Origin: Planctomycetota bacterium
GTDB taxonomy: Bacteria > Planctomycetota > Planctomycetia > Planctomycetales > Planctomycetaceae
DNA: 64,000 bases
Assembly: GCA_027618475.1 (NCBI GenBank)
Contig: JAQCEJ010000014.1
Location: 1 to 64,000 of the forward strand
Direction: 5' to 3'
In this document: positions 28,676 through 34,989 of the stretch, piece after piece
Layout of the letters: every line of letters begins with the position of its first letter
Numbering within the stretch: the stretch's first letter is position 1
Position numbers and translations under genes: made by a program
The notes under the pieces: generated by a model
Database searches by the model: none
The model's input: only the letters and a program-made list of their open reading frames with translations
What the model was told of the DNA's origin: nothing

Positions 28676-28822
28676 GTGAGAGGTATGACACCGACCGATG
28701 GTGTTAACCTCGTTCCCTTCACGCTCGAGGACAGCGAAGTCTTAACGGCGCATCAATTATTTTTCTGTGTCGTTCCGTTATCGTCTTGTATTATACATCG
28801 GCACCGAGGAGACACAGGCATA

Positions 28823-30433
28823 ATGCGCATGACAGCACTAAGATTAATCACGACTGCCGTTCTGTTTTCTTCATCAGCGTATGCCCAAAGCCGGCAGGCC
28901 CCTCCAGGGATGTTCAAAGATCTTGATGATGAAATTGCCGGAGGTGCCGCCATCGTACGAGGGGCTCAGTTGTTCGTCGACGATGTGATAATCGAAGAAA
29001 TGTCGGGCGTCGAGAAATCGCTCCATCAGCCCATCAAATACGAGGGTAATCCGATTCTCGTTCGCGACAAACCGTGGGAAGATTCGGGCCCCGGTTATGG
29101 GACCGTCCATTTCGACGTCGACGAAAACCTATTCAAAATGTGGTATTCGGTTTGGAAGCAAGGGAAAGAACCTTCGACAGCGTATCTCTGTTACGCTGTT
29201 TCATCCGACGGCATCGAATGGACGAAGCCGATTATCGATGACGGTCACAATACGAATCTTGTACAACAACCGGACCTCGACGGTTTTCAATGTCCCGGCA
29301 TTTTCAAGGATCTGCGTGAATCGAATCCGAATCGCCGTTATAAAATGCTTTTCAGTTGTGCCCCCGACGGTACATCCAAGACGTGGATGTCGAGCATTGC
29401 CTTTTCGCCGGACGGCCTCACGTGGCAGGCGTCCGACGACCCGGCGGTGATCCCGTTCAGCGATACTCAACTCTGTCCGTTCTGGGATCAGAGGCAGCAG
29501 CGGTACGTCGCCTTTCTGCGGTTCGGTCCTCCGAACACCAGAATTATTTCCCGCATCGAAAGTGAAGATTTTTTGCACTGGTCGCCGAAGGTGACCGTCT
29601 TGCGTAAAACGAAAATGGACGATCCGATGGCGACTCAATTCTATCAGATGGCGCCGTTTCCCTATGGGAATTACTATTTTGGACTGATCGCCGCCTATCA
29701 CAACGAAACACTCAAACAGCCGACAACCGATTCCCCCTGGACCGATCGCAAGAATCTGCAACTCGCATATAGTCGAAACGGAGTGACATGGTCGCGCGTG
29801 GGAAAAAACGGCACGATTCCCACGCGCGAACTGAACGACGACAAAGACTGGCTGCCGATTGCTCAGGATGCCATCTTTCTTCCCTACGGAGAGAAGGACA
29901 AAGACTGGGATTGGGGAACCGTCTCTCCTTACTTCACGCCGCAACCGATTATCGTCAATGACGAAATCTGGATGTATTACATGGCCCAGAATGGACGAAA
30001 CTGGTGGACCTACACTGGCGATCCCCCCAAGTTCGATCCCGATGCCAAAGAACCCGATCTCGGTGTCGGCCTTGCCAAGCTGCGACTTGACGGTTTCGTC
30101 TCGATCGACGCGGGCGATACTGAAGGAACGCTTACGACGAAGCCGCTGATTTTCCTGGGAGACACGCTGGAAGTGAATACCAACGCCGAAGGGGGTTCAC
30201 TCCTCGTCGAAGCGCTTGATGAGGACGGAAATTCTATTGAAGGATTCGGCAAACAGCAAGCCGATCCGATATCGTCCGACCATGTTCGTCACGTTGTCCG
30301 CTGGAACGGCGACGCCGATTGTCATTTGCTGCAAGGGAGACCGATTCGATTGAGGTTTCACCTGAAGAATTCAAAGCTGTATTCGTTCACGCCGCGTATT
30401 ACGTTGAACCATTATCTGCAGTCATACGATTGA
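28823..30433 (+). CDS. Exported glycoside hydrolase-like (GH32/43-type) propeller protein
   Basis: 536 residues with a signal peptide (MRMTALRLITTAVLFSSSAYA). The body has repeats in the style of five-bladed propeller glycosidases: NPILVRDKPWEDSGPGYGTVHFD, LFKMWYSVWKQ, YLCYAVSSDGIEWTKP, YKMLFSCAPDG and LAYSRNGVTW. A C-terminal beta-sandwich follows (GDTLEVNTNAEGGSLLVEALDEDG). The family call rests on this pattern; the catalytic acids cannot be fixed by eye. The ATG at 28823 was chosen for its GAGGAG and signal peptide. It follows the PSCyt1/DUF1553 gene by about 150 nt on the same strand and would act on polysaccharide outside the cytoplasm. Confidence 0.78.
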   Translation: MRMTALRLITTAVLFSSSAYAQSRQAPPGMFKDLDDEIAGGAAIVRGAQLFVDDVIIEEMSGVEKSLHQPIKYEGNPILVRDKPWEDSGPGYGTVHFDVDENLFKMWYSVWKQGKEPSTAYLCYAVSSDGIEWTKPIIDDGHNTNLVQQPDLDGFQCPGIFKDLRESNPNRRYKMLFSCAPDGTSKTWMSSIAFSPDGLTWQASDDPAVIPFSDTQLCPFWDQRQQRYVAFLRFGPPNTRIISRIESEDFLHWSPKVTVLRKTKMDDPMATQFYQMAPFPYGNYYFGLIAAYHNETLKQPTTDSPWTDRKNLQLAYSRNGVTWSRVGKNGTIPTRELNDDKDWLPIAQDAIFLPYGEKDKDWDWGTVSPYFTPQPIIVNDEIWMYYMAQNGRNWWTYTGDPPKFDPDAKEPDLGVGLAKLRLDGFVSIDAGDTEGTLTTKPLIFLGDTLEVNTNAEGGSLLVEALDEDGNSIEGFGKQQADPISSDHVRHVVRWNGDADCHLLQGRPIRLRFHLKNSKLYSFTPRITLNHYLQSYD

Positions 30434-31897: not shown

Positions 31898-32968
31898 ATG
31901 ATGACACGTCGTTGGTTGACATTCGTATTTACGGTGGTTGTCTCGGTTTCGACCGGTTTGGCATCCGCTCAGGATGATAAGAGCAAAACGGCAATGACCG
32001 ACCTGTCGCAGGTCGATGAAGACTTTGCGTTCCAAGGCGAATATGTGGGAGAAGTAACCGTCGGTCAGCGCGGCAACGTCACGATCGGATTGCAAGTCGT
32101 CGCCCTAGGTGACGGGCAGTTTCAAGCGGTCGAATACCCCGGTGGATTACCGGCTGCCGGTTGGGTGGGTCATGGGCGCGTTCAACTTGCCGGCTCTCGC
32201 AACGGAAGTGCCGTCCGGTTGGATGGCTACCCCCTCGAAATCACGCTCGAAAATAGCGAAGCCCATGTTGCATTTATCGGCGGTACTCCGGCTGGAGTCC
32301 TCCGCCGCGTTCATCGTACCAGTTCGACATACAATCTCGCCGCTCCCGAGGGAGCCGATGTCCTCTTCGACGGCACGAATACCGATCAATTCAAGAACGG
32401 TCGCATGACGCCTGATGGACTTTTGATGGTCGGCACCGAAACCGTAAAGGGATATCAGAATTTCCGTCTGCATGTCGAGTTCAAGCTTCCGTATATGCCC
32501 TATGCACGAGGACAAGGCCGCAGTAATAGCGGTGTCTATCTCAACGGTCGCTATGAAGTACAGATCCTCGATTCGTTCGGACTCGAAGGTGCCGACAATG
32601 AAGCGGGGGCGGTGTATCGCTACAAGAAGCCCGACATCAACATGTGTTTCGAACCGCTCGCCTGGCAGACCTACGATATCGAAATGACGGCACCAAAGTT
32701 CAACGCCGCCGGAGAGAAAATGTCGTCGGCACGCCTGACCGTTCGACACAACGGCGTCGTGATTCACGACAATATCGAAGTCACCCGCAAGTCGGGTGGT
32801 GGTGCCGAAGAAGGCCCCAATGCTTTGCCGATCCAGTTGCAAGATCACGGAAATCCGGTTGTATTCCGCAACGTCTGGATTGTCGACTACGACAAGAAGG
32901 TAGAATGCTGCTGCTGTGTCTGTAACCGCCGCGGCACAAGATGTTGCTGTGTGACCTGCGATAAATAA
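31898..32968 (+). CDS. Exported DUF1080 protein with cysteine-rich tail
   Basis: 356 residues. A signal peptide (RRWLTFVFTVVVSVSTGLASA) is followed by a small N-terminal domain and a DUF1080 (3-keto-disaccharide hydrolase-like, concanavalin-type) domain: VLFDGTNTDQFKNG, NFRLHVEFKLPYMP, GQGRSNSGVYLNGRYEVQILDSFG, QTYDIEMTAPKF and LQDHGNPVVFRNVWI. Family members are extracytoplasmic and linked to sugar breakdown. The last 20 residues are unusual: nine cysteines (337-340, 342, 349-351 and 354) in CCCCVC and CCCVTC groups after the domain end. GAGGAG upstream supports the ATG. Single-gene unit. Confidence 0.9.
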   Translation: MMTRRWLTFVFTVVVSVSTGLASAQDDKSKTAMTDLSQVDEDFAFQGEYVGEVTVGQRGNVTIGLQVVALGDGQFQAVEYPGGLPAAGWVGHGRVQLAGSRNGSAVRLDGYPLEITLENSEAHVAFIGGTPAGVLRRVHRTSSTYNLAAPEGADVLFDGTNTDQFKNGRMTPDGLLMVGTETVKGYQNFRLHVEFKLPYMPYARGQGRSNSGVYLNGRYEVQILDSFGLEGADNEAGAVYRYKKPDINMCFEPLAWQTYDIEMTAPKFNAAGEKMSSARLTVRHNGVVIHDNIEVTRKSGGGAEEGPNALPIQLQDHGNPVVFRNVWIVDYDKKVECCCCVCNRRGTRCCCVTCDK

Positions 32969-34110: not shown

Positions 34111-34989
34111 TTATTCTTCTTTCACGACTTCATTCCGCAGTGTGCCGATGCCTTCGATTTCGACTTCGACGATGTCGCCTGGTTTCATTGCGGACGTCTT
34201 GCCGGGCGTGCCGGTGAAAATCAAGTCACCGGGGTACATCGTAACGTGCTGACTGATGAAGCTGATCATCTTCGCCGTGTTATGAATCAGGTGATCGGTG
34301 TTTTCTTCCTGCAGCACTTTGCCATTCAGCTTAAGCCGCATTTGCAGATGATCGGGATCCAGGCCGGTTACAAGAAACGGACCACACGGACCGAACGTGT
34401 CGGCCCCCTTTGCCCGCCACCATTGTACGTCGCTCTTCTGCCAGATCCGTTCACTCACATCATTGCCGCATGTTACGCCGAACAGATAGTCGAGGGCATC
34501 TTCCTCTGCGACGTTGCTGCACTCTTTGCCGATGACGAGGACGAGTTCAGCTTCAAAGTGCAGGTCTTCGGCTCCCTTGGGGTAAATAATCGCCCCCCCG
34601 TGAGGTGCGAGTGACGACGGACTTTTGAAAAACGGCTGCGGAATCTTAAACTTTTCGGGAATTTCTTCGTCTTTCAGATGGCTCTTGTAATTTCCTGCCA
34701 TTGCGAACACATGAAAGGGATCGGTCGGCGACAAAAGCGTGATATCGCTTAGCGGGAAGCTATGATCAGTGAGTTCCCATTGTTCGAAAATGTCTCCTTC
34801 AATTTCGTGCACTCGGTCGTCCTTATACAATCCGTACGCGACTTCGTTGCCGTGTAGAAAGCGGACAAACTTCTGTACCTTGGACTCTACCTTCTCACCC
34901 TCTTTATCGTCAGCCTGCGTGTTAGACAACGACATTTCGGTGAGTGTACAGAGTGCTAACAGACTGCTGAAAAATGCGAGTCGAGACAT
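34111..34989 (-). CDS. Exported FAH-family hydrolase/isomerase
   Basis: 292 residues: a signal peptide (RLAFFSSLLALCTLTEMSLS) and then a fumarylacetoacetate hydrolase-type domain, with VRFLHGNEVAYGLYK at the front and FKSPSSLAPHGGAIIYP, HFEAELVLVIGKEC, YLFGVTCGNDVSERIWQ and TMYPGDLIFTGTPGKTSAMKPGD in order. The metal-binding Glu-x-Glu (FEAELV) is kept. Family members act on 2-oxo acids and are usually cytoplasmic, so the leader is odd. The ATG at 34989 was chosen over the longer frame because GGAG lies 6 nt upstream. Confidence 0.85.
   Translation of the reverse strand: MSRLAFFSSLLALCTLTEMSLSNTQADDKEGEKVESKVQKFVRFLHGNEVAYGLYKDDRVHEIEGDIFEQWELTDHSFPLSDITLLSPTDPFHVFAMAGNYKSHLKDEEIPEKFKIPQPFFKSPSSLAPHGGAIIYPKGAEDLHFEAELVLVIGKECSNVAEEDALDYLFGVTCGNDVSERIWQKSDVQWWRAKGADTFGPCGPFLVTGLDPDHLQMRLKLNGKVLQEENTDHLIHNTAKMISFISQHVTMYPGDLIFTGTPGKTSAMKPGDIVEVEIEGIGTLRNEVVKEE

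Follow-up and report, generated by a model that had tools for sequence, protein, structure and literature searches.

A recurrent, sequence-variable cysteine-rich tail on an exported DUF1080 protein of the Planctomycetaceae and its possible role as a disulfide handle

The window analyzed here, a stretch of 64,000 nucleotides (positions 1 to 64,000 of contig JAQCEJ010000014.1, assembly GCA_027618475.1) from a planctomycete genome of 5.93 Mb in 218 contigs, encodes a protein, P0001, that carries nine cysteines at its C-terminus, and it raises the question of what such a tail might be doing on an exported member of the DUF1080 family. Assignment of P0001 to this family rests on a Pfam scan in which PF06439 scored 115.2 bits against a gathering cut-off of 26.8 (E 4.9e-33) and was the sole match at E≤1; nothing was detected outside residues 153-328, the YTV repeats (PF07639) included, and NCBIfam assigned no family to the protein. 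Export, as proposed in a preliminary description of the locus, is borne out by direct reading of the N-terminus, which presents MTRRW, a hydrophobic core and ASA-Q (Table 1). The nearest solved structure is chain A of 4qhz (E 4.9e-24), with which the core aligns over 182 residues, and an AlphaFold2 model built from two sequences had a mean pLDDT of 46.2 and was set aside. One account, in which few characterized members are named, counts a 3-ketotrehalose hydrolase and a xanthanase/lichenase among the DUF1080 proteins and names BT2157, THTE_1561 and CCNA_01705 as PF06439 members (PMC9007349), and nine DUF1080 proteins, mostly predicted to be extracellular, have been reported for Thermogutta (PMC5673643). 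With these 3-keto-disaccharide hydrolases and 4qhz P0001 has the domain in common, a family-level annotation under which a comparable activity may be presumed, but it differs from them in its additional N-terminal region and in the Cys-rich tail. The N-terminal region, of some 120 residues, is conserved among orthologues and yet has no match in either Pfam or NCBIfam.

Table 1. Features of the P0001 gene and its product (positions in the window).
Feature	Position	Strand	Basis
ORF, exported DUF1080 (3-keto-disaccharide hydrolase family) protein P0001, 356 aa, Cys-rich tail	31898..32968	+	PF06439 match and orthologue L007
Signal peptide MMTRRWLTFVFTVVVSVSTGLASA, followed by Q; end ASA-Q, no lipobox Cys	31898..31972	+	Judged by eye from sequence
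N-terminal region, ~120 aa, aligns with relatives, no Pfam family	31994..32353	+	Pfam scan
PF06439 / DUF1080 domain, residues 153-328	32354..32881	+	Pfam; nearest structure 4qhz chain A
Ala236, replaces domain Cys kept in 94/110 group-A orthologues	32603..32605	+	Orthologue comparison
Cys250, second near-universal domain Cys (89/110), usual partner missing in P0001	32645..32647	+	Orthologue comparison
Nine-Cys tail CCCCVCNRRGTRCCCVTC	32906..32959	+	Codons checked one by one

P0001 ends in VECCCCVCNRRGTRCCCVTCDK, and its tail, WIVDYDKKVECCCCVCNRRGTRCCCVTCDK, follows directly upon the PF06439 domain. A codon-by-codon check places the cysteines at residues 337, 338, 339, 340, 342, 349, 350, 351 and 354 (5 TGC and 4 TGT codons), precisely where the preliminary description had located them and past the end of the domain at residue 328; its further remark that the rest of the protein is devoid of cysteine holds save for Cys250. 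Such a tail does not belong to PF06439 in general, as had also been suggested: across the 24 other PF06439 matches of the genome, the 30 C-terminal residues of the ORF never include more than 2 Cys (1 in the case of L002). The same count over 649 ORFs of at least 100 aa, obtained by simple longest-first picking in 855,957 bases of the source genome (window included), gave no Cys in 477 ORFs, one in 131, two in 30, three in 8, four in 2 and nine in P0001 alone, the Cys usage of the genome being 1.13% (453 ORFs). Among the 227 exported-like ORFs of this sample (P0001 included), as defined by a crude signal-peptide rule, the next highest tail has 3 Cys.

The proposal that the tail acts as a sorting signal was rejected, in the sense of a general signal in the source genome, given that P0001 is the only exported-like ORF of the 0.86-Mb sample to end in this way and that a whole-genome search with the 26-residue tail recovered only P0001 itself; the former result was also counted against the anchoring role considered below. 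Nor did the search for CCCxxC-type tails on other proteins, put forward as a check, single out the exact motif as a signal: the pattern occurs 51 times genome-wide versus 66 for the reversed-pattern control, and 28 of the 30 loci inspected have a central reading frame in short, mostly implausible ORFs. Sorting tags of the MYXO-CTERM and PEP-CTERM type present a hydrophobic segment and a basic end after their motif and are common to many exported proteins. The tails resemble these tags and LPXTG in their extreme C-terminal position and, in some relatives, in an Arg-rich end; unlike them, VECCCCVCNRRGTRCCCVTCDK has no hydrophobic stretch after the cysteines and is unshared by the exported ORFs of the sample, and a tag with a membrane anchor was discarded as well.

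The distribution of the tail was analyzed in the 170 genomes of the same family, all of which yielded a protein match at E≤0.001 (a search at the order level gave the same 170 genomes). The resulting 131 homologues (120 genomes plus L005) are mainly the best match per genome, the remaining family genomes, some 50 whose best matches were weaker, being left out. Three homologues (L042, L097 and L103) are cut off by a contig end and do not enter the tail counts. This leaves 110 complete tails in group A (109 family genomes and one MAG) and 18 in group B, a paralogue clade marked on a FastTree tree in which the long branches are uncertain. Similar tails, whose absence elsewhere would have spoken against the preliminary description, do exist: at least three tail Cys are present in 38 of the 110 group-A proteins, spread over 12 of 41 genera plus L005, and 55 have none, a distribution for which the FastTree tree requires no fewer than 10 changes. 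The group-B tails, 3-11 residues long, never reach two Cys (0/18). Cysteine makes up 174 of 3102 tail residues (5.6%) versus 492 of 39,957 (1.2%) for the protein bodies. The tails, exemplified by L040 ACCRPVKCCQPFDCCP, L104 CAPKPCVPCCVECVPCRKC, L020 CSSPCPPACCVPNPCCRPLRLRRCR and L016 CPNPCNCCPLVC, are not alignable across genera, and 12 of them, one per genus, hold 14 CC pairs (7.2 when shuffled) and 13 C-x-P (6.0), a comparison in which the shuffles reward mere Cys clustering too. The Cys tail thus recurs, with variable sequence, within one orthologue group and is not a one-off.

Within genera, the trait can be either labile or retained. In g51, seven of 14 tails lack Cys and the other seven have 3-7. 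In g10 (17 genomes/species), the three tail Cys of a YCxPCxxxxC element are invariant in 17/17, and purifying selection acts on them, since both TGC and TGT are used at each of the three and the position after the first Cys takes five residues (T, H, F, Y, S). Beyond the family, 25 of 60 further loci, drawn from 58 genomes within the class, have tails of at least 15 residues, but at least three Cys occur in only three of them: L287 (4), L312 (3) and L299, which ends in CCRCVCHCQRRC and whose tail, SCCRCVCHCQRRCQRVGLLRRLFCRR, has 7. Lys/Ala/Glu-rich C-terminal tails of up to 213 aa replace the Cys tails in orthologues of another, Pirellulaceae-like family, f5 (L315, L317, L323, L326, L333 and others), many of them without the domain Cys pair discussed below. 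The C-terminus is thus a site of varied additions, of which the Cys-rich one is one sort.

A tail this variable could also be unselected or mistaken, a C-terminus drifting past the last strand or an Ala-rich sequence, NAAAVSVTAAAQDVAV, turned into Cys by a frameshift where the Cys run begins. A frameshift at about 32900 had been named as the result that would expose the tail as an artefact. Frame +1 meets TAG at 32901-32903 and frame +2 ends after RMLLLCL (read from residue 335), so that an indel upstream of that position would terminate P0001 immediately or within seven residues, and only from about 32904 on, where the Ala-rich frame opens, does the objection stand. The synonymous codon usage score of the tail (0.33 over 22 codons, the gene averaging 2.65) is not decisive, if a little low for frame 0, and some doubt attaches to this tail in particular, because its closest orthologue, L007, is 57% identical and no relative of the same genus serves as a check. 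Against this, the 216 out-of-frame readings of 108 homologous tails contain at most 5 Cys, as compared with 6-9 in six of the 110 in-frame group-A tails, and at least three Cys occur in 38/108 in frame versus 4 and 11 out of frame. Cys-rich tails are therefore no general frameshift artefact, and an in-frame tail of this composition fits the behavior of the orthologue family. Together with the synonymously conserved cysteines of g10, these results make an unselected or mistaken tail the least probable of the alternatives, even though tail length and sequence vary wildly among relatives.

Two alternatives grant the cysteines a function. In one, which we regard as unlikely, they would bind a soft metal such as Zn or Cu, serving as a store, a sensor or a structural knot. 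Nine Cys within 18 residues, with CC, CxC and CxxC spacings, are congruent with this, and the YCxPCxxxxC[DE] ends of g10 might form a site of three Cys and an acid; but Cys number and spacing change by genus with no fixed ligand set, histidines are few (4 in 12 tails) and the setting is exported. In the other, to which we attach a similarly low likelihood, Cys250 would pair with a tail Cys, the remaining eight would pair among themselves and the tail would be a clasp rather than an anchor. Nearly all group-A proteins keep two domain cysteines (NECG...Y and NMC) when each site is counted by itself, and both are present in 77/110; P0001 has lost the first, and its 9+1 Cys make an even number. 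All four genera with tails of at least six Cys (g1, g39, g29 and g51) lack one member of the pair, as compared with 7 of 38 others (Fisher p 0.003; p 0.049, 0.005 and 0.013 at thresholds of 3, 4 and 5 Cys), and L299, the sole tail of at least six Cys outside the family, belongs to a protein that has lost one as well. This association was noticed post hoc and the independent pairs on the tree are too few to reach significance, for which reason we treat it as a lead only. No tail of at least six Cys occurred among 30 further out-of-family loci examined after it had been noted, and loss of the pair is common anyway, affecting 33 of 110 group-A proteins and 11 of 60 out-of-family ones, 10 of the latter 11 with 0-1 tail Cys.

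Among the options that the preliminary description left unranked, cross-linking or anchoring is favored here over metal binding. P0001 is an exported DUF1080 member with a lineage-specific thiol tail, and it seems reasonable to postulate, with a probability of roughly 0.4, that after export the tail cysteines form disulfides. Their partners would be other proteins, so that the enzyme becomes fixed in the envelope, plausibly within a network that the Cys-rich YTV proteins of the wall make up, or else other copies of the same enzyme, cross-linked via their tails. A disulfide handle would best account for a tail that is flexible and Cys-rich, on an enzyme exported into an envelope with YTV proteins. 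Planctomycete wall preparations have been reported to contain these proteins, which that report places in the Planctomycetales only (PMC8567305), and the wall to withstand boiling SDS (PMC3422733). YTV sequences are present in 168 of the 170 family genomes, and the source genome encodes two of these proteins, one with 40 Cys and the other with 78. Furthermore, the Cys total of body and tail is odd in several proteins (3+4 in 9 of 17 from g10, for instance), and therefore at least one thiol would be left for a partner outside the chain.

Several results count against a link to the wall. The number of tail Cys does not follow the YTV Cys content of the genome (Spearman 0.04, p 0.77, 47 genomes; 0.17, p 0.33 for the means of 36 genera), in a comparison of low power that used 52 loci (L245 without a clear YTV ORF) and one YTV match per genome, two in the source genome. 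YTV proteins are near-universal while half of the group-A tails are Cys-free, so that a thiol wall tether is not general. VKOR was not found in the source genome nor in 5 of 8 others (absent in 6 of 9), which also counts against anchoring, though it is uninformative. It is a long shot that planctomycetes repeatedly evolve short, variable thiol tails to weld one exported sugar enzyme covalently into a Cys-rich wall, without recourse to a sortase, a lipid or any conserved motif for sorting, and give up the domain disulfide when the tail becomes very Cys-rich. If true, this would constitute an enzyme-immobilization system independent of all three, in organisms whose way of retaining enzymes on a wall of Cys-rich proteins is poorly known. 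The tails that come and go among close relatives, as in g51, provide natural pairs for the study of thiol anchoring of extracellular enzymes.

P0001 and the YTV proteins are both exported, rich in Cys and endowed with CC and C-x-P elements (C-x-P being abundant in the YTV sequences examined, as in the tails), and they are encoded in the same genome; unlike those structural repeat proteins, P0001 has a short appendage on an enzyme, with no YTV repeat. Some tails, such as ACCRPVKCCQPFDCC in L040, are also reminiscent of the keratin-associated high-sulfur proteins, in which CCxPxCC-like spacing is found, a functional analogy that implies no kinship. No publication dealing with Cys tails in the DUF1080 family emerged from the literature searches. 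The tail is a confirmed feature and matches no known tag; it is a variant appendage that recurs in an established family of exported enzymes, and a function can be ascribed to it only tentatively.

The genomic context of P0001 comprises genes for an FKBP isomerase, HisF and an FAA hydrolase, together with a GFO/IDH/MocA oxidoreductase 2.3 kb downstream; it forms no clear operon and points to no firm pathway. A nearby ORF of 585 aa (28676-30433, + strand) has no Pfam match at E≤0.001. Elsewhere in the source genome, a short ORF on the minus strand (L156, G000:C109, ~34918-34938), MTEPTRSSESKHATPPQCCGTCCCCCCCSGQCGCGDTVNPQSANSGCSQ, contains seven consecutive Cys and may correspond to a small Cys-rich protein. 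Another small protein (L179, G000:C139:45609-46166), with a hydrophobic stretch and the tail DDCDNNQCDLACDP, is encoded about 2.2 kb from the YTV match at C139:48317, and its N-terminus is resembled by that of a third ORF (G000:C63:28263-28589), the tail of which has two Cys.
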